A stretch of 64,000 bases of DNA from positions 62,001 to 126,000 of the forward strand of contig QKEL01000011.1 of the NCBI GenBank assembly GCA_003252395.1. The letters run 5' to 3'. A program made the position numbers and the translations under genes. Of this stretch, positions 1-14,655 are shown one piece after another (the first letter of the stretch is position 1; each line of letters starts with the position of its first letter). The notes under the pieces were generated by a model, which had not been told where the DNA came from, did no database searches, and saw nothing but the letters and a program-made list of their open reading frames with translations. This DNA is from Spirochaetales bacterium. Its GTDB lineage: Bacteria > Spirochaetota > Spirochaetia > Treponematales > Treponemataceae.

Positions 1-902
1 AAACCGGAGGTCTCGGGCGCGGGCTCGGGGCATTGCTCGACGAATCCGAACAGACCGAAAAGGACCGGACCCCAGACAACGCGCCGCGGGGAGCGGGCAC
101 GGAACTATTCATTAACCCCTCGCTTCTCAAGCCCAATCCCCACCAGCCCCGCCGCGAATTCGACGAGGAAGCCCTTCGCGAACTCGCGGACTCGATCCGG
201 GAACACGGGATAATACAGCCCATTATCGTGGAAGAGGCGGGAGACGGGTCCTATTTCATCATCGCGGGAGAGCGACGGACCAGGGCAGCCAGGCTCGCGG
301 GACTTTCTGCCGTTCCGGTGATCGTGAAGAAATTCTCCGACGAGCGAAAGCTCGAGGTCGCCCTTATCGAAAACATCCAGCGGGAAAACCTGAACCCCGT
401 GGAAGAGGCGCAGGCGTACCATAAGCTCATGACGCTCGGCAACCTCAACCAGGAAGAGGCGGCGACGCGGGTGGGAAAAAGCAGGTCAGCCGTCGCGAAC
501 GCGCTTCGCCTGCTCAAGCTTCCCGAGGACATGCAATCGTCGCTCGCCTCGGGCCAAATAACCAGCGGACACGCCCGGGCCATCCTTTCCGTGCTCAACC
601 CCGCGGACCAGCGCATTCTCTTCGGCAGGATAGTCGGCAACGGGCTTTCCGTGCGCGATACGGAACGAATGGCCGCCGAACTGAACGGCGGCAGCAGGGC
701 CGGGGCGACCCCCGCCGAAACGCCCAAGAAGAAAGAGGCCGACGCCGGGAAGGACATGGAATTGCGCGCCCTGGAACAGCGCTTCATAGACGTATTGGGC
801 ACCAAGGTAGCCGTAAAGGGCAACCTGAGCCGCGGCTCAATCGAGATTTCCTTCTTTTCCCGTGACGATCTGGACCGGATTTACGGCCTGATTAACCGCT
901 AA
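1..902 (+). CDS. parB: Chromosome partitioning protein ParB (5' end outside window)
   Basis: ParB binds centromere-like parS sites, spreads as a CTP-dependent clamp and works with ParA in chromosome segregation. The reading frame is open to the window edge (first full codon at 3) and the first residues read GGLGRGLGALL, the usual ParB N-terminal motif for ParA contact, so the gene starts a few codons upstream and the TTG at 33 is internal. Visible are the ParB/Srx domain with the GERRTRAARLAGL CTP-binding motif, a NPVEEA segment, the helix-turn-helix region (QEEAATRVGKSRSAVANALRLL) and a C-terminal dimerisation region. parA would be expected immediately upstream. The TAA stop overlaps the stop of the convergent ppk. 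Confidence 0.95.
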   Translation, partial: TGGLGRGLGALLDESEQTEKDRTPDNAPRGAGTELFINPSLLKPNPHQPRREFDEEALRELADSIREHGIIQPIIVEEAGDGSYFIIAGERRTRAARLAGLSAVPVIVKKFSDERKLEVALIENIQRENLNPVEEAQAYHKLMTLGNLNQEEAATRVGKSRSAVANALRLLKLPEDMQSSLASGQITSGHARAILSVLNPADQRILFGRIVGNGLSVRDTERMAAELNGGSRAGATPAETPKKKEADAGKDMELRALEQRFIDVLGTKVAVKGNLSRGSIEISFFSRDDLDRIYGLINR

Positions 903-3073
903 TTCCTGCGAACGCTGAACTCTCGCTGGGGTTCCTTCTCGAAGATCTCGGTGCGTTTCCGCTCGGCCTCGTACAGCACTTCCTGAATGCGCACCGCGGG
1001 CTCTCCCTCGACCCGGCGCCGGCGGGTCCAGCTTCCGTCGCTCTGCAGGTAGTGGGCCTTCACGTTGTCGGCGAAATACAGCTGCAGTACGTCGCGGACC
1101 GTCTTTCGGATGGACTCCTGCAGGACCGGGAACATGAGCTCCACCCGGCGGTCAAGGTTTCTGGACATCCAATCGGCGCTCGAAAGCCATACCTCGTTCG
1201 CCCCCGAATTCTCGAAGCAGAAAATGCGGGTATGTTCCAGATACCGGTCTATGATACTGACCACCGTGACGTTTTCGCTTAATCCCGCGACGCCGGGCAC
1301 GAGCATGCACACCCCCCGCACGTTAAGGAGCACCTTCACCCCCGCCCCGCTCGCGCGGTAGAGCGCCTCGATTATTTCCGGGTCGGCGAGGCTATTGAGC
1401 TTCGCCATGATGCGCCCGGGATTTTCGGGGGAGGATCGCTCGATTTCCCGTTCGATCAGGGAAAGGAGCTTCGGCTTGAGGTCGATGGGGGCCATGACCA
1501 GCCGTTTAGTGTTCATGATCGCCGAATAGCCGGAGATCATGTTGAAAAAAACCGTGGCGTCGTTGGCGATTTCCTCGTTCGCGGTAAAGAGCGACATATC
1601 CACGTAGAACCGGGCGGTTTTATCGTTGTAGTTCCCGGTGGAAAGGTGGACGTAGCGCCTGATTCCCTCCGTCTCGCGGCGCACCGCGAGGAGAATCTTG
1701 GCGTGGACCTTGAGCCGCGCGATTCCGTACACCACGATAATCCCTGCCTGCTCGAGCCGCTGCACCCACACGATGTTCCGCTCCTCGTCGAAACGGGCCT
1801 TGAGCTCCACGAATACCGTTACGTGCTTGCCGAGCCGCGCGGCGCGCTCGAGGGCGCGGATTATCGGCGAGTCGCCGCTGGTGCGGTAGAGCGTCATCTT
1901 GATGGCGAGCACCGCCGGGTCGTCCGCGGCGTCGTTCACGAAGCGCAGGACGGGCTCGTAGGACTGATACGGGACGTGCAGAAGCACGTCGGAGCGCTTC
2001 AGCTCGTCCCAAAACGGGCGGTCCTGGGGAAGCTCCACCGGCCAGAACGCGCGCCAATGCGGGTTCCTGAGTCGGTCGTAGCCTTCGACGTTGGCGAGCT
2101 CCACCAGCGTGGGCAGGTCGATCGGGCCGGGAACGTGATACACGTCGTCGTCGTCGAGCCCCATGCTCCGCTTCAGGGAATCCAGGATCACGGGGCTTTC
2201 GCCGGTGCACAGCAGGCGAACGGGCACGGAAGAAAGCCGCGATGCGAGCACTTCCTGTATGGCCGCGATAAAATCGTCGTCCCGCTCCTCGTCCACCGCC
2301 CGATCCGCGTCGCGGGCAACCTTAAACAGCAGGCTTTCCTCGATACTGAAACCGGGAAAGAGGCGTTGGCCGAAACTGCGCACCACGTCGTCCAGCAGGG
2401 TAAAGCAGCGGCTCTCCCCCTCGTCCGGAAGCCAGACCACCCGGGTAATGCTCGCGGGTATTTGCACGATGGCCAGGGGAGGATGCCCCTCCGCCGTTTC
2501 CAGGCTGTCGGGCACGGGAAGAACCCCCGCGGTTTCGAGAAAGTTCGCCAGGGGGCCGTCGGGCATGGAGATCGTGCTGCGAAGCAGGAACGCGGCATGC
2601 AGCCTGAGGTTTCCTATACTGGGGAATTCCTCGTTGGCGTTGGTGCGCAGGGGGGTCAACAGGGGAAACACCTCGCCCATGAAAAAGGAATCCAGGAAAC
2701 GCAGTTGCGCCGGGGTGTATTTCGAGGGGGGCACGTAAACGAGCCCTTCCCGTTCGAGGCCGGGAAGTATTTCTTCCCGAAGGCACCGGAATTGGGTATT
2801 CACGAGTTCGTGAACGCGGGCGGACAGCCGGGAAAGCCGCTCCCGGACGGGGACCCCCGCGGTATCGCAGGATTCGGGGGAACGGAGGCACTCCTCCTTG
2901 AGGGAGGCGACCCGCACCATGAAGAATTCGTCGAAATTGGAAGAGACTATCGTAAGGAAGCGCAACCGTTCCAAGAGGGGCACGTCGTCGCGGAGCGCCT
3001 CGTCGAGAACGCGGGCGTTGAACTCGATCCATGAAAGCTCGCGGTTAAAGAGCCTGATTTTTTCTTCCGGCAT
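899..3073 (-). CDS. ppk1: Polyphosphate kinase 1
   Basis: Reversibly polymerises the gamma-phosphate of ATP into polyphosphate through a phosphohistidine. About 724 residues, normal for the family. It opens with the N-terminal domain motif FNRELSWIEFN and carries the two PLD-like catalytic histidine motifs, RLKVHAKILL and LEHTRIFCF, plus STGNYNDKTARFY. I place the start at ATG 3073, because GAGGTGG lies 6-8 nt upstream; a TTG at 3088 is in frame but has no ribosome-binding site. It lies 11 nt downstream of the exopolyphosphatase gene, so synthesis and breakdown of polyphosphate are probably co-transcribed. The stop overlaps parB's stop tail to tail. Confidence 0.95.
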   Translation of the reverse strand: MPEEKIRLFNRELSWIEFNARVLDEALRDDVPLLERLRFLTIVSSNFDEFFMVRVASLKEECLRSPESCDTAGVPVRERLSRLSARVHELVNTQFRCLREEILPGLEREGLVYVPPSKYTPAQLRFLDSFFMGEVFPLLTPLRTNANEEFPSIGNLRLHAAFLLRSTISMPDGPLANFLETAGVLPVPDSLETAEGHPPLAIVQIPASITRVVWLPDEGESRCFTLLDDVVRSFGQRLFPGFSIEESLLFKVARDADRAVDEERDDDFIAAIQEVLASRLSSVPVRLLCTGESPVILDSLKRSMGLDDDDVYHVPGPIDLPTLVELANVEGYDRLRNPHWRAFWPVELPQDRPFWDELKRSDVLLHVPYQSYEPVLRFVNDAADDPAVLAIKMTLYRTSGDSPIIRALERAARLGKHVTVFVELKARFDEERNIVWVQRLEQAGIIVVYGIARLKVHAKILLAVRRETEGIRRYVHLSTGNYNDKTARFYVDMSLFTANEEIANDATVFFNMISGYSAIMNTKRLVMAPIDLKPKLLSLIEREIERSSPENPGRIMAKLNSLADPEIIEALYRASGAGVKVLLNVRGVCMLVPGVAGLSENVTVVSIIDRYLEHTRIFCFENSGANEVWLSSADWMSRNLDRRVELMFPVLQESIRKTVRDVLQLYFADNVKAHYLQSDGSWTRRRRVEGEPAVRIQEVLYEAERKRTEIFEKEPQREFSVRRN

Positions 3074-3084
3074 TGTGAGCCACC

Positions 3085-4665
3085 TCAAACCATGATGAGC
3101 CGATACCCGAACAAATCCTCGAACAGATCGGCCTTCTCCTCGAGCGCGAGCCGCTCGAGGGTAACGTCATGGGTACCCTTCGCCCGAAGGTAAAAGGTAT
3201 CCTTGGTCAATTCAAGATCGAAATCCTGTATAAGCTGCGAATGGCCGCGGTCAAGGGCGTCGGCCACGCGGAGGAGCGACGAAAGCTTCAATACCATGGT
3301 CCGATCCGCCCGGGGAAGCGCCGCGTACGCGGGATGGGAGGGATTCGGAAGCTCAGCGCGGTGGTAGCGTACCACGTTCGCCAGGATACTCATGTCTTCC
3401 TTATTCATTCCGAATATGTCCGAATGGGTCACGATGTATTGGCTGTGGATATGGTGGTCGGCGGAGCGGATGAAGGCGCCCACGTCGTGCAAGAGGGCCG
3501 CCACCTCCAGGATGAGCCGCGCGTGCCGGTCAAGGCCGAGCTCGTCCTCAAGGCAGTCGAAGAGCTTCAGGGCGACCCGCGTGACGTAGCGCGCGTGATC
3601 CTCGTCAAAGTGGAACTTTTTGCCCAAGCTCATGGCCGAGGCGACAACCTGATTGTAGAAATCCTCGCGAACCAGGCGTTCGGGCCCCGCGAGCCGGGAG
3701 ATAACGACGCCCTCGCGAATGGAGAGGGTCGGCACGATCACCGTTTCGGCGGTGGTAATTTCGAGGAAGAACTGATAGGCCAGCAGTCCCGGCCCCAAGG
3801 CCTCGGCTTCCCCGTAGCTGATGCGGTAATGCCCCACGAGCTCGTCCACGGAAGCCTCGCCGATACGGCCGACGAAGGCGATAAACTCGTCGCGGCCTAT
3901 CTCGGCGTAAAAATCGGAGACCCTCGTCCCGATGGTGCGCGCGACCAGACGCGCGTCGTTCCCGATGGCGATAAGCTGATTTATGTGGTCGAGCCGAAGC
4001 TCGTTATTGAGGTGCTCGGCGGTGGTCCTGATGTAATCGGCCAGGAAGCGGCGCATATCCTTGAGCGAACCGCGCATGGCCTTTACCTGTTCCTCGATTA
4101 TGACGGTCCCCAAGCGGAAACTGTGCGCGGCGACCATTCGCCCCTTTTGCAGAAGCATGATTTCGGTGGAGCCGCCGCCCACGTCCAGGATGATGGAATT
4201 GGCCTTCGATATCTTCGCGGGTGCGTCGCTTAGGGCGTAGTTCACCGCCAGGTACATCAGGCGGTTTTCCTCGATCCCGTCGGCGACCCGCACCCTGAAG
4301 CCGGTCTTGACCGCGACCCGGTCGAGGATCGCGTCGCGGTTTTTCGCCTCGCGGATGGCGCTCGTGGCGATTACCGTCACGTTGTCGGGATCGATTTTCC
4401 AGCTTTCCAGTATCTCCCGATAGCGGTTCAGGATGCCGAGGCACAGCAAAAGGGATTCCCGCGAAATGACGCCGTTGACGAATACGTCGCGACCCAGCGC
4501 GAGGGAACGCTCCGCCCGGTCGATCACGGTCCAGGCGCCGCGATTGGCGCGCTTTCCGCGGGCAGACGCCGCGGGCTTCGCGGATATCTCGGCTACCAGG
4601 AGCCGTATACCCGTAGCGCCGATCTCGATGACCGCCTCGAGCCGCGATTGCACGCCCTTCGCCAT
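3085..4665 (-). CDS. ppx: Exopolyphosphatase/pppGpp phosphatase (Ppx/GppA) with C-terminal HD domain
   Basis: Hydrolyses terminal phosphate from polyphosphate and possibly pppGpp. The N-terminal two-thirds is an actin-fold ASKHA phosphatase: EIGATGIRLLVAEI near residue 12 is the first phosphate loop (usually D-x-G-S-N-S, here divergent) and DVGGGSTEIMLL is the second. The last third is an HD-type helical domain with LLHDVGAF and nearby histidines (HHIHSQYI), as in long Ppx proteins. At 526 residues it matches the long GppA/Ppx form. ATG 4665 begins 4 nt after the stop of the glycosidase gene and has only a weak ribosome-binding site, so translation is probably coupled. Assignment as Ppx rather than GppA rests on the ppk neighbour. 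Confidence 0.9.
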   Translation of the reverse strand: MAKGVQSRLEAVIEIGATGIRLLVAEISAKPAASARGKRANRGAWTVIDRAERSLALGRDVFVNGVISRESLLLCLGILNRYREILESWKIDPDNVTVIATSAIREAKNRDAILDRVAVKTGFRVRVADGIEENRLMYLAVNYALSDAPAKISKANSIILDVGGGSTEIMLLQKGRMVAAHSFRLGTVIIEEQVKAMRGSLKDMRRFLADYIRTTAEHLNNELRLDHINQLIAIGNDARLVARTIGTRVSDFYAEIGRDEFIAFVGRIGEASVDELVGHYRISYGEAEALGPGLLAYQFFLEITTAETVIVPTLSIREGVVISRLAGPERLVREDFYNQVVASAMSLGKKFHFDEDHARYVTRVALKLFDCLEDELGLDRHARLILEVAALLHDVGAFIRSADHHIHSQYIVTHSDIFGMNKEDMSILANVVRYHRAELPNPSHPAYAALPRADRTMVLKLSSLLRVADALDRGHSQLIQDFDLELTKDTFYLRAKGTHDVTLERLALEEKADLFEDLFGYRLIMV

Positions 4666-4669
4666 GGTA

Positions 4670-6100
4670 TTACAGCTTGTCGATCAACATCGAGCACTTT
4701 CCCGAGGGGATCGGGAGCGTTTTCTTTTTTTGTCCAAGTATGTTGATCGTGAAATAGTAAAGCTTTTCGCTTTCCATATGGATTTCCCAACCGCGCTGGC
4801 TCTTGTTGGAAAGGATCGTAATAAGGTTCCGTTTCAGGCTTAGGTTCTCTATGCCCATCACCTCGAGATTCGGGATAATCCAGTCCACGGTCTTCCTGGG
4901 CAGGCTGATGGAAAGGCCGATGATGTTCTCGATCATTAAGGCGATGGTGGAAAGGCCGGTGTAGGGCAGATACTGCTTACGGGGAAAGCCTTCCTTCTCG
5001 GGCCATTGGGCGGGGCCCTCTTTCTGGGGCATATACGCTTCCCAAAGATGGCCCTTATTGTGTTCCCCGTTGGGAGACAGGGCGTCGAGCACGTAATACA
5101 GATGCCGAATGGTGCATTCCCGGGCGAGGTCCCATCGATTGTACTTTTCGAGCCCCTTAACCACCATAAAGGTAAAGGGCGCGAACACGCTGCCCCGGTA
5201 TCCCATGCCGCGCTCGTCAAAGTCGGGATCGTCGGCGGAAAGGGAGGGAAAGGGATGGTCCACACCGAAGGTTTTCGGGTTTTGCAGGTGGGCGATTAGC
5301 CGGTCGGCCTTGTCCTCGTTGGGAATTTCAGCGAGAAGGGGCCAAAAGCCGGCGATGGTTTTTTGGGGCAAACGTTTCTCGTCGGCGTCGATATCGTGAT
5401 AAAACCCGGTATCGTTGTCCCACATATGGGAATTGATGCGGGTTTTCAGGGAAAAGTACATGCGCTTGTACTGGAAGCTCAGGTCCTTGTCGTTCAGGAT
5501 ATCCCCGAGGGCGGACATATAGAGGGCGTTAATCGCCAGGGCGGTATTGAAATCGACGAGATAGGCCGCCTTGTCGCGGGGAGAATTGCTCATGGTAGTC
5601 GCGGTGAGCGGAACCTGGTATAGCCCGTTTTCCCGCTTGAAGGTCGCGTCGATCCAGCTCATGTAGCGCTGGAGGACGGGCATAATGTCCTTTATGCGCT
5701 TTTTGTTCGCCGATTTATGGAACAGGTTGAACTCCGCCCAGGCAAAGAGCGGCATGCCGATACCCTCGGGGTTGTCCTTGGAGAGAATGGGATCGCCCGA
5801 GAGGAGATCGTATTTCCAGCGGATTGCCCCTGATTCTTCCTGATGCTCGTAAAAAAAGTCGAGACTCTGGTTCGCGTGATAGTTACGGTTCGAGTACACG
5901 AAGAAAAAGGACGAGAATATGGTTTCAAACTGGTCAAGCACCGAAATATCCCCGTCAGGGTAGATAAAATACCCTTCGGGAGAAAGACCTTTCACGTCGG
6001 GGGTAACCCAATTGTCCTGGATCCACGCCCAACTGCGATCGTATATATCGACGAAATCTTGATCGTAGAAGTGAACTTTTGGAAAATCGCGCTTATTCAC
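4670..6100 (-). CDS. Trehalase/GH63-like (alpha/alpha)6-barrel glycosidase
   Basis: Protein of 476 residues with the pattern of MGH1-type glycosidases (GH37 trehalase, GH63 glucosidase, amylo-alpha-1,6-glucosidase): repeated aromatic-rich helices, an E-x2-G-x-I-R-W-K-Y segment, GIGMPLFAWAEF, a W-D-N-D-T-G-F-Y-H-D segment typical of the barrel, and GYRGSVFAPFTF. No signal peptide, so it acts in the cytoplasm, perhaps on storage glucans or trehalose; the exact substrate cannot be read. The start is GTG 6100: GAGGAG lies 5-6 nt upstream and comes from the edge of the adjacent tandem repeat. An alternative GTG at 6121 would lie inside the repeat and lacks a ribosome-binding site. It heads the ppx-ppk run. 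Confidence 0.65.
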   Translation of the reverse strand: MNKRDFPKVHFYDQDFVDIYDRSWAWIQDNWVTPDVKGLSPEGYFIYPDGDISVLDQFETIFSSFFFVYSNRNYHANQSLDFFYEHQEESGAIRWKYDLLSGDPILSKDNPEGIGMPLFAWAEFNLFHKSANKKRIKDIMPVLQRYMSWIDATFKRENGLYQVPLTATTMSNSPRDKAAYLVDFNTALAINALYMSALGDILNDKDLSFQYKRMYFSLKTRINSHMWDNDTGFYHDIDADEKRLPQKTIAGFWPLLAEIPNEDKADRLIAHLQNPKTFGVDHPFPSLSADDPDFDERGMGYRGSVFAPFTFMVVKGLEKYNRWDLARECTIRHLYYVLDALSPNGEHNKGHLWEAYMPQKEGPAQWPEKEGFPRKQYLPYTGLSTIALMIENIIGLSISLPRKTVDWIIPNLEVMGIENLSLKRNLITILSNKSQRGWEIHMESEKLYYFTINILGQKKKTLPIPSGKCSMLIDKL

Positions 6101-6107
6101 ATATGCT

Positions 6108-6295
6108 CCTCGAAACTGCACCGGCTCCTCAGTGAGCCGGTTTGTTGGACAATACCTCGAAACTGCACCGGCTCCTCAGTGAGCCGGTTTGTTGGACAAT
6201 ACCTCGAAACTGCACCGGCTCTTCAGTGAGCCGGTTTGTTGGACAATACCTCGAAACTGCACCGGCTCTTCAGTGAGCCGGTTTGTTGGACAATA
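6108..6295 (-). repeat. Four tandem 47-bp repeats, each with an 8-bp hairpin
   Basis: Four consecutive copies at 6108-6154, 6155-6201, 6202-6248 and 6249-6295; copies differ only at one loop base (C in copies 1-2, T in 3-4). Each holds the inverted repeat ACCGGCTC-6 nt-GAGCCGGT. Read on the minus strand each unit ends in GCAGTTTCGAGG, and the copy nearest the glycosidase gene continues as CGAGGAGC, which forms that gene's ribosome-binding site. The near identity implies recent expansion by slippage. The conserved core without the hairpin reappears upstream of the TraB-family gene at 13417. Confidence 0.95.
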
Positions 6296-6535
6296 CCGAA
6301 TAAAGACAAGGAACCCGTAACGGGTCTGTTTTACGAGCGTTACCCAAAAAAAGGAACCGCCGGCACAGCAAGCAGCCCATTGAACAATACCTCGAAACTC
6401 ATCGAGAACGTGTGGTTTTTTAGTCGCTCAGACAACCCTTTTTGTCTTTTTTCGTTGGCTGCGTCAATTTTTAAGTATACCATATTCGACATTAAAATTA
6501 TATACTTAGACAGTAAATTTCGAGATGTGGAGGGG
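6296..6535. other. AT-rich non-coding spacer with repeat remnant and inverted repeat
   Basis: No convincing gene. It is visibly richer in A and T than the flanking genes. At 6384-6399 it carries ACAATACCTCGAAACT, identical to the junction between units of the neighbouring 47-bp array and in the same orientation, so it looks like an eroded outlier copy. TAAGTATA (6472-6479) and TATACTTA (6501-6508) form an 8-bp inverted repeat with a 21-nt loop, a possible operator for the downstream fusion gene. TATAC-type -10 elements are present but no confident -35 pairing. Confidence 0.6.
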
Positions 6536-8932
6536 ATGATGTATCAATCCCACGTTTTTTTGGAGGTTCGAATACTGCTTTCCTCGAAAGAGAAGGCGTT
6601 TTGTTCGTGTTTTATCGGAAATCACGCGGGCAATTGCCCGGTTTGCCGACGGGAAACGAACGCGAATCCCGTCGTGAACCCAAAAGCCGCCCGTTTGGCC
6701 TATACGCTGGCCCACGCCCTGGACTGCACCCTGGCGGAACGCGCGCCATACGATTTGCCCAAGGGGAGTCCGTCGCTGCCCGAGAAATACAGCCTTTCGG
6801 GCGCTTCCGTGAAAATCGGGACCGAAGGCTTCATGGATATTGAATTCCACCGCCGAAAGAAACGGATCAGGATTCAGGAAGTCCGTATCGAAGAATACGC
6901 CGGAAGGCTCACCCACCACAACGGCGAGACCCAAATGGATTATTCCCAAATCGGGGCGCCGAATATCCGGCTTCGCACCATGAGCGACATAGAGCTAGGC
7001 GAGGAGGCCGAAATTTTCCTCGACGAGCTCGCGCGCCGCATCCAATACATGGGAATCCTCAAGGGCGCGACCATCGATACGGCCATCCGGTGCAACGCCT
7101 ACGTGTCCCTCGCCCGATACCCCGCCTCGCCCACCTATTTCGTGAAGCTCAGAAACCTCAATTCCTTCAACTTCGTGCGCAAGGCCATAAACGCGGAGCT
7201 GCACCGACAGGAGGATATCCTGATCGCCGGCAACGAGGTGACCTCGGAGAGCCGGCTTTGGAACGAGCGCCAGGAACGAACCGAGTTTTACCAGAGCAGG
7301 GAGTCGGTATCGGCCCTCGAAACGAGCCCCCTCGGCATATCGGGAGACTTTAAATGCCCGCCGGCGATCCTCGCGGAACTTCGCGCCTCGGCGGTGGAGC
7401 ATCCTTCCGAGCGGCAGAATCGGCTGATCGACACCTGGGGGATCGCGCGTTCCCGCGCCGAGTTTATCTGCGACGAAAAATCCCGCGCGGACTTTTTCGA
7501 GGACACCATCAACGCCGGGGCCGACCCCATGGAAACGGCCCATTGGCTCATGTCGGAGGTGACCGCCTACCTGAGAAAATCGGGGCAATCGATCCAGGAA
7601 TCCCCCCTTTCCCCGCGCCGTTTCGCGGCCATTCTCGCTCTTTTCAAGGACCGCACGATAAACAGTACCATCGCGAAGCAGCTGATCCACGCGGTGGCGG
7701 AGACGGACCGAGACCCCGCGGACCTGATGAAGGAACGCGAGTGGGCGCAGATAGGCGACGAAAAACAACTGCGGAGCGTCGTTTCCCAGACGATCGCGGA
7801 GAGTCCACACGAAACGGCCCGGTTGCGGGACGGCGACATGGCTCCCCTCGAGTTCCTGACCGGCGTGGTCATGAAAAAGACGCGCGGCCTGGCGGATCCC
7901 CAAATGGTCAAAACCCTCTTGAAAGACGAGCTCAAGATAAGCATCGTTCGGGTGTTGGCCATGGGCGGCACCATATCGGGCAATATCGTGGACGGCGAGA
8001 TTTCCGCGGGAGACGAAAAGGTCCTCAAGACGATGATTTCGCCGGAATTCGCCTCCAGCGCCATCACGATCACCAGTATCCCCACGGAACGGCTCTTAAG
8101 CGAAGAGATTCAGCCCGCGGACTGGGCCGCCTTGGTTAGCGCCGTGGCGGAAGCAATGGCGGCGGGAACGGTTAACGGGATCGTGATAACCCACGGCACG
8201 GACACACTGGCCTATACGGCGCCGCTTTTATACTGGCTTTTCGGCGACGCGCCGGTGCCCATCGTGCTTACCGCCTCCAATTCCCCGCCCGGCAACGACC
8301 CGGCCAACGGACAAGACGAGGCGCGGGGCAACTTGAACCGGGCGATCGCGCTCGCGACGGAGAAGGAACGGGGCGTCTACGTGGTTTTCGGGGACCGGGT
8401 CCTCTCCCCGCTTAACCTGAAATTCAACCGGCCCTCCGGCTCGGGTTTCACCAACTGGAATATGGGAGAGCCGGCGTTCACCGGTTCCGGGCTCATGTCC
8501 GAGTACGCGGACGCGGACCGCTACGTGATGAGACAGCTCCTTTCCGACGCCGCGGACCGCATGTTCCTCGCCCGCGCCTTTCCGGGCATGAGGGCGGACC
8601 GGCTCCTGGCGCTTACCGACGCCGGGGTTTCCTGCTTCTTCTTGGAATTATACGAGAAGGGCACCGGCAGCATGAAAGAAACGCCGTATTCCCTCAAGTC
8701 GCTGTTGATCCAGGGAAGAAAGCGCAACTGCCGGTTCTACTGCACGTCGCAGCAGGAGAGCGTCGTGGATTTTTCGGGCTATTCGACTGCCCGGCGTATG
8801 TGGCGGGAGGGGGCGGTTCCGATGGGGTCGCTTACGACGGAATCGGCCATCGCGCTCTATTTTGCCGCGAGCCTCGTGTGCGATACCCAGGAAGAGCTTG
8901 ACCAAATGATGGAATCCGCCGGCCAGATATAG
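6536..8932 (+). CDS. Fusion of GatB/GatE-like tRNA amidotransferase subunit and type I L-asparaginase
   Basis: A 798-residue two-part protein. Residues 1 to about 465 resemble GatB, the tRNA-binding kinase subunit of Glu/Asp-tRNA amidotransferase: the Zn cysteines FCSC and CPVC (about 22-37), RLTHHNGETQMDYSQIGAP, TAIRCNAYVS, KLRNLNSFNFVRKAI and a YqeY-like helical tail. Residues about 467-798 are a complete asparaginase domain with AMGGTISG (nucleophile Thr), THGTDT (about 552) and a candidate catalytic Lys in NLKFNRPSG (about 627). Archaea use separate GatE and GatD proteins in this combination. The GatB motif GLEVH reads FLEVR, so a metal-binding histidine is replaced. Start ATG 6536 or 6539, preceded by GGAGGGG. 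The frame is open back to 6236 through the repeats, but that extension has no homology. Function is inferred; it could be a paralogue with a different substrate. Confidence 0.85.
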   Translation: MMYQSHVFLEVRILLSSKEKAFCSCFIGNHAGNCPVCRRETNANPVVNPKAARLAYTLAHALDCTLAERAPYDLPKGSPSLPEKYSLSGASVKIGTEGFMDIEFHRRKKRIRIQEVRIEEYAGRLTHHNGETQMDYSQIGAPNIRLRTMSDIELGEEAEIFLDELARRIQYMGILKGATIDTAIRCNAYVSLARYPASPTYFVKLRNLNSFNFVRKAINAELHRQEDILIAGNEVTSESRLWNERQERTEFYQSRESVSALETSPLGISGDFKCPPAILAELRASAVEHPSERQNRLIDTWGIARSRAEFICDEKSRADFFEDTINAGADPMETAHWLMSEVTAYLRKSGQSIQESPLSPRRFAAILALFKDRTINSTIAKQLIHAVAETDRDPADLMKEREWAQIGDEKQLRSVVSQTIAESPHETARLRDGDMAPLEFLTGVVMKKTRGLADPQMVKTLLKDELKISIVRVLAMGGTISGNIVDGEISAGDEKVLKTMISPEFASSAITITSIPTERLLSEEIQPADWAALVSAVAEAMAAGTVNGIVITHGTDTLAYTAPLLYWLFGDAPVPIVLTASNSPPGNDPANGQDEARGNLNRAIALATEKERGVYVVFGDRVLSPLNLKFNRPSGSGFTNWNMGEPAFTGSGLMSEYADADRYVMRQLLSDAADRMFLARAFPGMRADRLLALTDAGVSCFFLELYEKGTGSMKETPYSLKSLLIQGRKRNCRFYCTSQQESVVDFSGYSTARRMWREGAVPMGSLTTESAIALYFAASLVCDTQEELDQMMESAGQI

Positions 8933-10882
8933 TTAGGGGGCGGGAACGGCCTGCGTTCCCGACGGCGTGCCCTGCGGGGCGCCTGTCGGGACGGCCGCGC
9001 CGCCGCTCGCCGGGTTCCCCTCGGCGGGAGAGGGGTTCGGCGCCTCGTCGGCCGCGTCCTGCGCCGACGGGGCGGCAGGCTCGCCGAACCAGATAACCAC
9101 CTCTTCCGCCTCGCTTTTATGCCTCATCTTCAAATACAAGGTCTCGGTCTCGGCGTTATAGCGGTAACCCGACGAATTATAGCTTTCGAATCGGGGATCG
9201 GTCCGGAAATCCATGCCGTAAATCTGTATGCGATAGAAGGGCTTTACGCCCCGAACGACCATATAGTGCACTTCGCCCTGGGGGAATCGCGTTACGAGCC
9301 GCAAGGCGCCCTCCGCGGTCCGGGATACGGAAACGGACTTCGCGCTCGTCCAGGTCCACATGCCCCGCTCTCCCATCGGGGCAAAGGAAACGGCCCGGGG
9401 CAGCCATGCGTTTCCGGTCATAACGAGGGGGTACACCTCGGAGGGAAGCAGCATGTGGTCCGATTTGGCCACGACGCCCGTCTTTTCCTGCTCCGTACCG
9501 GAGAGGGCAAAGCGTGCGGGGAATTCCGCGCGGTCCTGGGTAAAGTCGAGGAGCGTGGTGGCGAGAAGGTTTCCGGCCGCCTTCCAGTCGGACTTGCCCT
9601 GCATCACCGTACCGTACCGCGATAGCACGGCCGCGACCCGGAACGTGGAGACGGTTTCGACCGTTGCCCCGTCGCCGCTGAGGTACAGGCTATCCTGCAC
9701 GCGCCACAGCGAGGATTTTAGCCTGCGCTCGCAGGATTCGGTCAGGGCTTCCAGCGCCGGGGACAAGGCGGGAGCCGCGGACGGCGCGTCCATCGCGGCC
9801 TCGAGAATGCCCGCCGCCTGGGTCGGCGTAAGCGAATCCATATCCAGGGAAACGGTGAGTTTCGCGACGTCGTCCAGCAGGACGGAGCTGCCGCGGTCTA
9901 CCAAATAGGGGATAACCGAGGGGAAATCGAAGAACGACGGGTCTCGGTCGGAGAGAAGCCGCGCGAGCCTGGACCGCTCGTTCCGTTCCTCGTCGGAGAA
10001 CGGCGCCCAGGTTTTTTCCAAATGATTGAGGAAGGTCGAGCTTCGCCACGTTCTGGCGGCGCCGGAACCCCAGGACTCGGGGATGGCCTCCACGGCGGCG
10101 CGGTACATGCCTACCCGCCCCATTTCGGCGATATAGTCCGTGGCCAGGGCCTCGTTGAAGGAACCGGAATTGATCGCGGTCCGGAAGGACGCCAAGGCGG
10201 CGGCGGCGAAGCGCTCGGTAGAGGACTGCAGGGCCCTGTCGCTGGCCCCCGCTAGGCTCGCGAGCTCGCTAATGACGAGGCCCTTTGCAGGACGCCAGGT
10301 TTGATAGTACACTGTCGGCGCCGTTCTCGGGATGACCAGGCGTTGCAGGGCCCCGGACGCGAAGGCCTGGGGTTGGGAAAAGGAGAACCGGGTCTTTCCG
10401 GTGGCGACGAGTGTCAGGGAATCCTTCTTTTCGATCCGCGCGCTCCGCGCGATCTTGTAGGGAACGGAAACTCGCCGGTATTTTTGGGGCATGAACGCTT
10501 TTACGGTGAGCACTTCGGAATCGCCCCGCCGTTCCGCAGCGAAAAAGAGGGTTACCCCGCCGCTGAAGCTGATTTCGAAGCCCGAATCGCGCTCGCCGAA
10601 ATCGACGATCGACAGGGCCACCGACGAGTTTTCGCCGGTATAGGCGAGCAGTGAATCGTCTTGGTCGAAAAATACGTCGATCCCGTTGGCGCCGATATGA
10701 AGCGGCAGGTCGGGACTCTCGGTTCCGTCGTCGCCCACCGTTCGGGACCCGGAGACGAGCATAGAGCCAAGCGACAGGGAAAAAGCCTTGCCATTGGTAA
10801 ATTGAAGGAAGAATATGCCGAAAATAATGGAGATATATAGCGCAGAGAGGAGAAGCATCCTGCGCGCAACGTGTTTCATCAT
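8933..10882 (-). CDS. Large membrane-anchored protein of unknown function
   Basis: 649 residues. The N-terminus (LLLSALYISIIFGIFFLQF) is a membrane anchor or uncleaved signal; the rest should lie in the periplasm. No domain was recognised. The first half is rich in short beta-type stretches, the middle is helical, and the C-terminus is a low-complexity P/A/G tail. It is divergent from a TPR lipoprotein gene 54 nt away, so the two may act together. Upstream, TTGATT (10914-10919), a 17-nt spacer and TACACT (10891-10896) end 8 nt before the ATG with no Shine-Dalgarno, consistent with a leaderless message. The stop codon directly abuts that of the convergent fusion gene (TAGTTA). Confidence 0.8.
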   Translation of the reverse strand: MMKHVARRMLLLSALYISIIFGIFFLQFTNGKAFSLSLGSMLVSGSRTVGDDGTESPDLPLHIGANGIDVFFDQDDSLLAYTGENSSVALSIVDFGERDSGFEISFSGGVTLFFAAERRGDSEVLTVKAFMPQKYRRVSVPYKIARSARIEKKDSLTLVATGKTRFSFSQPQAFASGALQRLVIPRTAPTVYYQTWRPAKGLVISELASLAGASDRALQSSTERFAAAALASFRTAINSGSFNEALATDYIAEMGRVGMYRAAVEAIPESWGSGAARTWRSSTFLNHLEKTWAPFSDEERNERSRLARLLSDRDPSFFDFPSVIPYLVDRGSSVLLDDVAKLTVSLDMDSLTPTQAAGILEAAMDAPSAAPALSPALEALTESCERRLKSSLWRVQDSLYLSGDGATVETVSTFRVAAVLSRYGTVMQGKSDWKAAGNLLATTLLDFTQDRAEFPARFALSGTEQEKTGVVAKSDHMLLPSEVYPLVMTGNAWLPRAVSFAPMGERGMWTWTSAKSVSVSRTAEGALRLVTRFPQGEVHYMVVRGVKPFYRIQIYGMDFRTDPRFESYNSSGYRYNAETETLYLKMRHKSEAEEVVIWFGEPAAPSAQDAADEAPNPSPAEGNPASGGAAVPTGAPQGTPSGTQAVPAP

Positions 10883-13368: not shown

Positions 13369-13416
13369 TTCGCGCGCGCCGGGGTGCGGTATCAGGGCAA
13401 TCCGGCGGCGAGAACC

Positions 13417-13464
13417 CGAGGCATTGAACCAACGCAGTTTCGAGGCATTGAACCAACGCAGTTT
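13417..13464 (+). repeat. Two tandem 24-bp repeats forming the RBS of the TraB-family gene
   Basis: Perfect duplicates at 13417-13440 and 13441-13464, followed by CGAGGAGC. The unit contains CGAGG, CATTGAACCAAC and GCAGTTT. It is the 47-bp unit at 6108-6295 (read on the minus strand) without the 24-nt hairpin insert. In both places the partial copy CGAGG plus AGC creates GAGGAG at normal distance before a start codon. Repeat expansion lies wholly in the 5' untranslated region. Confidence 0.9.
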
Positions 13465-13476
13465 CGAGGAGCAAAA

Positions 13477-14655
13477 ATGAGACAGACAATACGACGCGTC
13501 ACCCTGGAGGGTCGGGAAATTATCCTGGTGGGCACCGCCCACGTATCGCGCGAGAGCATAGACGAGGCGGTACTCGCCATTCGGGAAGAAAAACCGGACA
13601 TGGTATGCGTGGAGCTGGACGAAGGGCGCCTGCAATCCCTGACGAACGAGAAGGGGTGGCAGGAACTCGATATCACGAAGGTCCTGCGCGAGGGAAAGGG
13701 CTTTCTCCTCCTCGCGAACTTGGTGCTCTCCACCTTCCAAAAAAGGATAGGGGACGATATGGGCGTACGGCCCGGCGACGAGATGAAGGCGTCGCTCGAG
13801 GCGGCGCGGGAAGCGGGGATAGCCACGGCGCTGGTAGACCGGCCCATTCACGTAACCCTGCAGCGGGCCTGGTCGAAAAACAACCTTTGGGGCAAGTCAA
13901 AGCTCATGGCGACGCTGATCTCCAGCGCCTTCTCGGACGAAAAAATCGAGGAAAACGAGATTGAGAACCTGAAGGACCAGGGGGCCATGGACGTCATGAT
14001 GGCCGAGCTCGCCGCCTACCTGCCCACGGTCAAGGAAGTGTTGATCGACGAGCGCGACCGTTACCTGGCGAGCAAAATATGGGAAGCCGGCGGGTCGAAG
14101 TCCGTGGCGATCCTCGGCGCGGGGCATCTGCCGGGGACGGAAGCCTACCTCAGGGAGCTCGCCGCGGGCGCGAAAAGCCCCGACACGGCGGATATCGCCG
14201 CGGTTCCGCCGAAAACCCTGGGCTCGAAAATCGCGGGACTCGCCTTCCCCGCCATAATCGTGGCCCTGCTCGCCGCCGGCTTCTTCACCGGCGGCGCGGT
14301 TACCTCGATCGACATGCTGGTCCGCTGGCTGTTATGGAACGGGAGCCTTGCGGCGCTGGGCACCATAATCGCCCTCGGGCACCCCCTGTCGGTAATCGTC
14401 GCCTTTATCGGGGCCCCGGCGGCCACCATCAACCCCTTTATCGCGGTGGGAATCCTCTCGGGCATTACGCAGGCGTGGGTCAGAAAACCCCAGGTGCGGG
14501 ACATGGAATTCCTCGCCAAAGACGTGGGCACCTTCCGCGGCTTTTACCGCAATAGAATTTCCCACGTTCTGCTCATATTCTTTCTCTCGAGCCTCGGCGG
14601 GGCGATCGGCAATTTTATCGCCGTTCCGGCCCTGGTTTCCAGTCTCATCAAATAA
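13477..14655 (+). CDS. TraB/PrgY-family membrane protein
   Basis: 392 residues. The N-terminal domain has the TraB/PrgY (pheromone-shutdown) pattern: LVGTAHVSRESIDEAVLAI, an E-L-D-E-G-R motif and GAGHLPG. The C-terminal 150 residues hold about four or five hydrophobic segments (for example FPAIIVALLAAGFFTGG, LLIFFLSSLGGAIGNFIAV). The fold is related to EreA/ChaN-like and TIKI domains, which include metalloproteases; activity here is unknown. The start ATG 13477 is chosen because GAGGAG sits 5-6 nt before it; the frame is open upstream to 13384 but that stretch is the translated repeat. A strong inverted repeat follows the gene. Confidence 0.85.
   Translation: MRQTIRRVTLEGREIILVGTAHVSRESIDEAVLAIREEKPDMVCVELDEGRLQSLTNEKGWQELDITKVLREGKGFLLLANLVLSTFQKRIGDDMGVRPGDEMKASLEAAREAGIATALVDRPIHVTLQRAWSKNNLWGKSKLMATLISSAFSDEKIEENEIENLKDQGAMDVMMAELAAYLPTVKEVLIDERDRYLASKIWEAGGSKSVAILGAGHLPGTEAYLRELAAGAKSPDTADIAAVPPKTLGSKIAGLAFPAIIVALLAAGFFTGGAVTSIDMLVRWLLWNGSLAALGTIIALGHPLSVIVAFIGAPAATINPFIAVGILSGITQAWVRKPQVRDMEFLAKDVGTFRGFYRNRISHVLLIFFLSSLGGAIGNFIAVPALVSSLIK

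Follow-up and report, generated by a model that had tools for sequence, protein, structure and literature searches.

The window analyzed here is a stretch of 64,000 nucleotides from a Spirochaetales bacterium (contig QKEL01000011.1, positions 62,001 to 126,000 of the forward strand), and one of its genes joins a GatB-type half to an asparaginase-like half in a single chain. The window protein is an orphaned and catalytically rebuilt variant of GatB to which an asparaginase-like domain is attached. The GatB pocket is rebuilt in all 78 sequences counted from the window's clade, and the genome features a separate gatCAB, a glutaminyl-tRNA synthetase (GlnRS) and an asparaginyl-tRNA synthetase (AsnRS), which together argue against a one-protein amidotransferase; the window protein is almost certainly not an amidotransferase. 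Judging from the sequences, it is most likely a stand-alone, non-amidating regulator that would bind asparagine and tRNA.

The fusion is contained in one open frame (6236-8932, forward strand) that encodes 898 amino acids when counted from its TTG. The start is likely the ATG at 6539 or 6536 (797 or 798 amino acids), since relatives open with MYQS. In Pfam the chain reads GatB_N, then GatB_Yqey, then Asparaginase, each far above its cut-off, so that both halves match the GatB and asparaginase profiles. In GatB, the GatB_Yqey tail has been modelled as binding the tRNA D-loop (PMC4027206). A scan of a named collection was taken to the best 80 of 142 relatives, all of which are spirochaetes by title. 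A full single-frame fusion with 41-90% identity to the window protein is present in 73 of these 80 loci, and the other 7 are incomplete or split; the 73 include L110 and L111, which belong to the intact-GatB type discussed further on. Frameshift or misassembly of two genes was ruled out by this count. The single-chain fusion without gatA or gatC beside it, as the initial annotation described it, therefore stands on its Pfam domains, its single frame, and the placement of gatA on contig C7 only.

The initial annotation also called the first half GatB/GatE-like, of which the GatB origin holds and the GatE likeness does not. The GatB half resembles bacterial GatB in NCBIfam, however, it scores below every GatB cut-off (best 286 vs 338). 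The TIGR00133 score is 251 bits (253 in the genome search) vs a cut-off of 314.8, and one clade member, G036, reaches 320 on the same model. Two GatE models match the tail of the fusion alone with 68 and 35 bits, and the better match spans model positions 442-625 of 630 with 68.2 vs 456 bits. The GatD scores are likewise low (83.6 vs 310 and 82.2 vs 324 bits). An AlphaFold2 model built with 52 sequences has a predicted local distance difference test (pLDDT) score of 85.3 and a predicted template modelling (pTM) score of 0.56, and a Foldseek search with this model matched GatB chains and L-asparaginases.

The rebuilt Mg/ATP site

The residue counts are based on 78 non-identical sequences of the window's clade, with 11 unfused GatB proteins and 37 intact-GatB fusions as references. 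The clade is labelled Treponematales; its carriers include Treponema, Gracilinema, and Brucepastera, the coded carriers belong to the window's own order, and the order of some rows was taken from title and tree. The residue table features 85 of 98 rows, 78 from the clade and 7 intact-GatB rows that belong to the 37 (L110 and L111 are contigs of L167 and L166). Left out beforehand were the 7 of the best 80 loci that are not full length, the partial or broken L011, L013, L017, L026, and L027, the duplicate of the window L003, and 13 rows whose core was shared.

In yeast GatB the Mg ligands are H36, E156, and E186, and ATP is contacted by E34, T189, N230, and S232 (PMC4027206). These residues were mapped by motif and spacing, and the 44 residues from E186 to N230 are equal in the GatB of L124. 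A reading in which the ATP site is kept, with N230 and S232 in a K-N-L-N-S motif, was rejected because the 44-residue spacing points to the D-A-N-x-S motif instead. The replacements in the window protein and their frequency in the clade are given in Table 1. Position 187 changes from Asp to Asn in 76 of the 78 sequences, and the equivalent of N230 is Tyr, His, or Phe in all 78, so the ATP-contact Asn is lost throughout. The S232 equivalent is Ala or Gly in 70 sequences and Ser in 8, with the window among the Ser rows. The clade keeps the equivalent of E34 (Glu 75, Asp 3), both Glu candidates for E156 (78), and T189 (78), and the window retains the remaining named ligands as Glu10, Glu119/120, Thr148, and Ser191. 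All 11 unfused GatB proteins of relatives are in the GatB state, with T189 and S232 varying in 1 and 2 of the 11, and the intact-GatB fusions retain the Mg ligands and the ATP-contact Asn in 37/37. The zinc-knuckle cysteines are lost in about 30 of the 78 clade sequences.

Because the swaps are uniform across the clade, the GatB site is read from these alignments as rebuilt into a conserved, more basic pocket and not as randomly eroded. The window protein shares the fold of bacterial GatB, its cradle, helical part, and YqeY tail, and its descent, and in relatives outside the order a fused GatB with an intact site sits in a gatCAB cluster; unlike bacterial GatB, the window protein and its clade have replaced Mg/ATP ligands, an extra asparaginase-like domain, and no gatA or gatC alongside. 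A new enzyme, whose basic GatB pocket would bind another phosphorylated or acidic ligand and carry out a new reaction, is a slim prospect. It would account for the uniform and conserved substitutions, which a new function would produce and decay would not, and the neighbouring genes are predicted to act on polyphosphate and sugars, however, no partner pathway or substrate is common to the carriers (ppx is found in 44/78 loci and ppk in 46/78).

The window genome has an ordinary gatCAB on another contig. The only gatA match lies on contig C7 (476 bits, just under the cut-off of 481), and it is adjoined by an ordinary gatB (486 bits, cut-off 314.8). A divergent gatC frame just upstream (L136:11673-12011) matches TIGR00135 below the cut-off, with an E value of 3.4e-6, and is missed by the Pfam GatC model at E 0.001. 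Since the sole gatA match is on C7 with gatC beside it, there is no gatA or gatC near the fusion. GlnRS (659.7 bits, cut-off 425.8), AsnRS (626.9 bits, cut-off 342.6), a bacterial aspartyl-tRNA synthetase (AspRS) and an AsnB-type synthetase are matched as well. The genome does not need the fusion for amidation, and the repurposed paralogue that the initial annotation offered as an option fits. GlnRS looks patchy in the window's own genus, where class Ic synthetase matches number two or more in 5/10 genomes and one in 5/10; close relatives may therefore differ in direct or indirect Gln-tRNA formation.

The asparaginase-like half and the intact-GatB fusions

By sequence the asparaginase-like half is closest to the archaeal-type L-asparaginases 4q0m, 9ufr, and 5ot0 (E about 1e-20), followed by GatD 1zq1 (1.7e-12). 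In the E. coli enzyme Thr12, Tyr25, Thr89, Asp90, and Lys162 are described as crucial for catalysis (PMC8256714), and Thr12 is the primary nucleophile (PMC12951835). The half shares with class 1 L-asparaginases of the archaeal type (4q0m, 5ot0, 1wls) the fold and the equivalents of Ser58, Thr89, Asp90, and Lys162. It differs from them in its position behind GatB, in the absence of a conserved loop Tyr, and in the nucleophile, which is Ala in most of the family and Thr in the window; a Thr or Ser nucleophile is absent in 63/78 clade sequences. No Tyr is conserved in the 44 columns after the nucleophile, with a maximum of 7/85 rows at any column. Two stand-alone asparaginases of relatives, used as the outgroup, feature Thr at the nucleophile. 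Structures of Thr-to-Ala asparaginases with bound asparagine are listed by entry title as 7c8x and 5dnc, which were matched for fold and not for the Ala, and the Ala form is a natural counterpart of such mutants. The window genome also encodes a separate, short, single-domain asparaginase-like protein of 166 amino acids (L164:460-957, G000:C2:334795-335241), which may belong to the short-chain class.

Relatives outside the order feature the same architecture with the GatB site intact. A sample of 394 genomes of the class gave 57 fusion-length rows, 41 of them outside the order with the same architecture, and 37 of the 41, from 11 family codes, were counted; G457, G492, G536, and G568 were left out as their matches start part-way into the profile. 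The GatB site is intact in 37/37 and the asparaginase nucleophile is Ala in 37/37. The equivalents of Ser58, Thr89, and Asp90 are likewise retained in 37/37; at the Lys162 equivalent 27 sequences have Lys, 9 have Arg, and 1 is unread. The genes are arranged in the order gatC-gatA-gatB~asp-aspS, and the fused gene is the gatB of the cluster. gatA is upstream of the fusion in 37/37 loci (5/5 and 32/32, the latter by tblastn), so ammonia can come from GatA. In L123 (G250) gatA is called as two overlapping frames and has a frameshift or sequencing error on that account. A gene for a non-discriminating-type AspRS lies downstream in 37/37, with 5/5 above the TIGR00458 cut-off and 32/32 by tblastn at 60-96% identity to two of those five AspRS taken as seeds, some matches being cut by contig ends. 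As a control, the AsnRS, lysyl-tRNA synthetase (LysRS), and bacterial AspRS of the window genome do not exceed 128 bits with these two seeds. A divergent MGH1/trehalase-like glycosidase is upstream in 30/37 (5/5 and 25/32), and in the other 7 the contigs end first. The gene-order counts for the 32 loci were made by tblastn; at a few loci gatA, aspS, or the glycosidase had escaped the gene caller.

AsnRS is above its cut-off in 34/37 genomes with an intact-GatB fusion, and an AsnB-type synthetase was found in 7/37 (E 1e-20; the search was for AsnB). L124 and L125 feature an unfused gatCAB-aspS in the same setting with the glycosidase adjoining, and several GatB-only rows belong to family codes in which fusions occur as well. 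Living genomes show this locus unfused, fused, and orphaned. The intact-GatB fusion of L198 (G545) has a long repetitive linker with repeated VPHSD before the asparaginase-like domain and is cut by a contig end. No recognizable account of a GatB-asparaginase fusion was found in the open-access literature, in a search that was not exhaustive, and the GatB-pseudo-asparaginase fusion of the relatives is apparently unreported.

No counted sequence has both sites intact. An intact GatB always occurs with Ala (37/37), and Thr or Ser occurs only with a dismantled GatB (15/78). A bacterial GatDE reading was dropped on this ground. In archaea GatDE consists of two proteins with a working GatD amidase. 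The window fusion resembles GatDE in pairing a GatB-type fold with an asparaginase fold, and differs from it in being one chain with GatD and GatE scores below the cut-offs. The one-protein layout put forward by the initial annotation, in which the asparaginase half would supply ammonia for tRNA amidation, could appeal to the two folds on one chain and to the use of the same folds by archaeal GatDE. It is contradicted by the Mg/ATP site, which is lost in 78/78, by the nucleophile, which is missing in 63/78 and 37/37, and by the separate gatCAB, GlnRS, and AsnRS, and is very nearly untenable.

Origin and possible role of the window protein

The clade keeps the glycosidase beside the fusion without gatC, gatA, or aspS there, and for this reason the window gene is very probably the orphaned gatB of a gatC-gatA-gatB~asp-aspS operon. 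The simplest history would start from an unfused operon and continue with fusion to a pseudo-asparaginase; in the window's clade gatC, gatA, and aspS would then have been lost from the locus, the GatB site rebuilt, and gatCAB supplied from elsewhere. We infer the order of these events; the fusion, the dismantled GatB site, the conservation, the synteny, and the intact-GatB form with Ala are observed.

A GatB tree of 105 rows was made with a quick method and has long branches and no known root; 7 of the 85 fusion rows were left out for want of a cut point. In this tree the clade fusions form one side of a branch (71 rows) with a value of 100 in the Shimodaira-Hasegawa-like approximate likelihood ratio test (SH-aLRT). 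The 4 rows of present-day GatB from the window's family group with L153, from outside the class, and L031 (f5) with an SH-aLRT of 100, and this group sits away from the class-typical GatB. This placement bears on an alternative GatCAB subunit or decoy, in which the dead GatB half would pair with GatA and GatC, and an inactive or retuned complex would control the amidotransferase dose. The intact relatives are encoded with GatA and GatC, and the model predicts that the fold is kept, however, the family's present GatB belongs to a different lineage, and a decoy is quite unlikely. In the asparaginase-domain tree all 85 fused domains are apart from the two outgroup enzymes (100/100), a separation that, with two outgroup rows only, suits one origin of the asparaginase-like domain.

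The proposed role starts from organisms that form Asn-tRNA by two routes. In some bacteria (Deinococcus, Thermus, Bdellovibrio) AsnRS is present and Asn is also made on tRNA via GatCAB with a second or non-discriminating AspRS (PMC4206432). Most genomes with an intact-GatB fusion have the same enzyme set, and the abstract of that paper mentions no asparaginase-like domain on GatB. Cells that load Asn onto tRNA by two routes need a means of choosing between them. The GatB~asp domain of the operon might bind free asparagine without splitting it, given the Ala nucleophile and the other pocket residues that are kept, and would then tell GatCAB and the non-discriminating AspRS whether Asn is still needed on tRNA or whether AsnRS can charge free Asn. 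We know of no feedback on GatCAB by free asparagine, and a nucleophile-less asparaginase domain inside GatB makes this question directly testable.

In the window's clade the GatB half has lost the Mg/ATP site through the uniform swaps, mostly to basic or aromatic residues. The asparagine pocket is mostly retained, and so is the tail domain, the tRNA-binding part of GatB. The kept tail and pocket, the lost Mg/ATP site, and another gatCAB in the cell point to a stand-alone, non-amidating regulator; an amidotransferase subunit would have become a conserved protein without a catalytic site. We infer the ligand, the tRNA binding, and the regulatory role alike, and a ligand-binding regulator is given about an even chance. 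The wider proposal, in which many uncultured spirochaetes would feature an asparagine-gated transamidosome and the window protein would be its sensor cut loose as a free-standing asparagine/tRNA sensor, is tentative.

Several results weigh against the regulator and its proposed history. In the window's own subclade the nucleophile position is occupied by Thr or Ser, as would be expected of an enzyme more than of a pure sensor. In some Treponema the Asp90 equivalent is changed (Tyr 7, Ala 1 of 78), as is the Lys162 equivalent (His 7, Arg 4 of 78), and the pocket is therefore not preserved throughout. Position 59, which is Gln in the E. coli asparaginase, is an invariant Glu in the fusions vs Thr in 4q0m and 5ot0, and because of this difference from the solved asparaginases the ligand may not be asparagine. 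The relative placement of the two halves in the model is unsure because the pTM is low. In the GatB tree the intact fusions are interspersed with unfused GatB proteins (3 changes) and do not form one group; the unfused clusters may therefore represent later domain losses, or the fusion may have occurred multiple times. Carriers are a minority of the listed own-family genomes (20/80), and the gene is thus dispensable across the family, yet it is under purifying selection where it is retained.

The first of these results underlies the main rival, a regained asparaginase, in which Thr would have returned in the window's subclade and the protein, on a scaffold derived from GatB that perhaps binds tRNA, would hydrolyze asparagine or some other amide. 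The window has all four of Thr479, Thr555, Asp556, and Lys629, and in the asparaginase-domain tree the Thr/Ser rows are nested among Ala rows with at least 5 changes, where the bootstrap is not fully settled. The change count alone cannot separate gain from loss; by the nesting, a Thr regained in the window is the likelier case. This rival lacks a conserved Tyr after the nucleophile, although Tyr25 is listed as crucial (PMC8256714), and 63/78 of the clade are without Thr or Ser; from the sequences, it is considered unlikely.

Occurrence and neighbouring genes

A search of 59 related genomes gave matches in 46, among them full or near-full fusions at 44-90% identity, and the carriers include Treponema vincentii, T. 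porcinum, and a Gracilinema caldarium metagenome-assembled genome. In an even draw from the phylum a fusion-length match (E 1e-200 or better) was found in 31/392 genomes, one of them broken. In a comparison with L033, the nearest relative, the cradle has a ratio of nonsynonymous to synonymous substitution rates (dN/dS) of 0.050, the helical and YqeY part one of 0.077, and the asparaginase half one of 0.056. The values describe a single close pair, because in the other four pairs dS had reached or nearly reached saturation in most comparisons. Broken copies are L047 and L027, with two frames in Brucepastera parasyntrophica (G028) and in-frame stops in G013, and the gene is intact in relatives. 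A decaying pseudogene would explain the broken copies in G013 and B. parasyntrophica and the patchy presence, however, the family at large contradicts it, and it is scarcely credible for a gene with a dN/dS of 0.05-0.08, a full single frame in 73/80 loci, and uniform replacement residues.

Table 1. Features of the window at and near the fusion gene; clade counts refer to the 78 sequences of the residue table.
Feature	Position	Strand	Remark
Polyphosphate kinase (PPK1) gene	899..3088	-	upstream in 46/78 loci examined; some others cut
Ppx/GppA phosphatase gene	3085..4665	-	upstream in 44/78 loci examined; some others cut
Divergent MGH1/trehalase-like glycoside hydrolase gene	4670..6121	-	syntenic marker common to gatCAB~asp clusters
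Fusion gene	6536..8932	+	one intact gene: GatB-type half (~466 residues) and full asparaginase-like half
GatB cradle domain PF02934 (GatB_N), pocket rebuilt	6560..7306	+	Pfam residues 9-257, 125.9 bits
Arg12, at Mg-ligand His (yeast H36)	6569..6571	+	Arg 78/78 clade; His 11/11 unfused GatB and 37/37 intact-GatB fusions
Arg117, at conserved His of HLEEDAGK motif	6884..6886	+	Arg 78/78 clade
Arg145, at Mg-ligand Glu (yeast E186) of L-E-I-V-T motif	6968..6970	+	Arg 77/78, Cys 1
Asn187 (Asp in GatB) and Tyr189 (ATP-contact Asn in GatB)	7094..7102	+	from residue table
Lys204, at Glu of E-I-K-N motif	7145..7147	+	Lys 77/78 clade
GatB_Yqey tail domain PF02637	7490..7933	+	Pfam residues 319-466, 131.8 bits
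Asparaginase-like domain, class 1 fold	7946..8932	+	Pfam Asparaginase residues 471-628, 97.9 bits
Thr479, equivalent of class 1 nucleophile Thr12	7970..7972	+	clade: Ala 62, Thr 11, Ser 4, Val 1 of 78
Thr555-Asp556, equivalents of Thr89-Asp90, kept	8198..8203	+	alignment and residue table
Lys629, equivalent of Lys162, kept	8420..8422	+	by alignment

The same glycosidase is directly upstream and divergent in 70 of 88 clade loci, with some genomes represented twice. The other 18 loci comprise 2 with a frame in between, 6 with no glycosidase, 8 that are cut, and 2 without a called fusion frame. The flanks were examined at 78 clade loci, and none has a clustered gatA, gatC, or aspS of the operon type. 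Between the glycosidase gene and the fusion, a 47-base tandem repeat occurs in 4 copies with a 99% match (6108-6297). Each copy carries a short palindrome, CCGGCTC...GAGCCGG, and the repeat core was not found elsewhere in the window at up to 3 mismatches.

The downstream neighbour (8933-10882) is tail to tail with the fusion and encodes 649 amino acids with a hydrophobic N-terminal stretch. Its product has no Pfam match, and its cluster is present in 42 loci. Further downstream, a 24-base tandem repeat of 2.2 copies (13417-13469) is located just inside the called start of a TraB-family frame (13384-14655), the real start of which may be further downstream.

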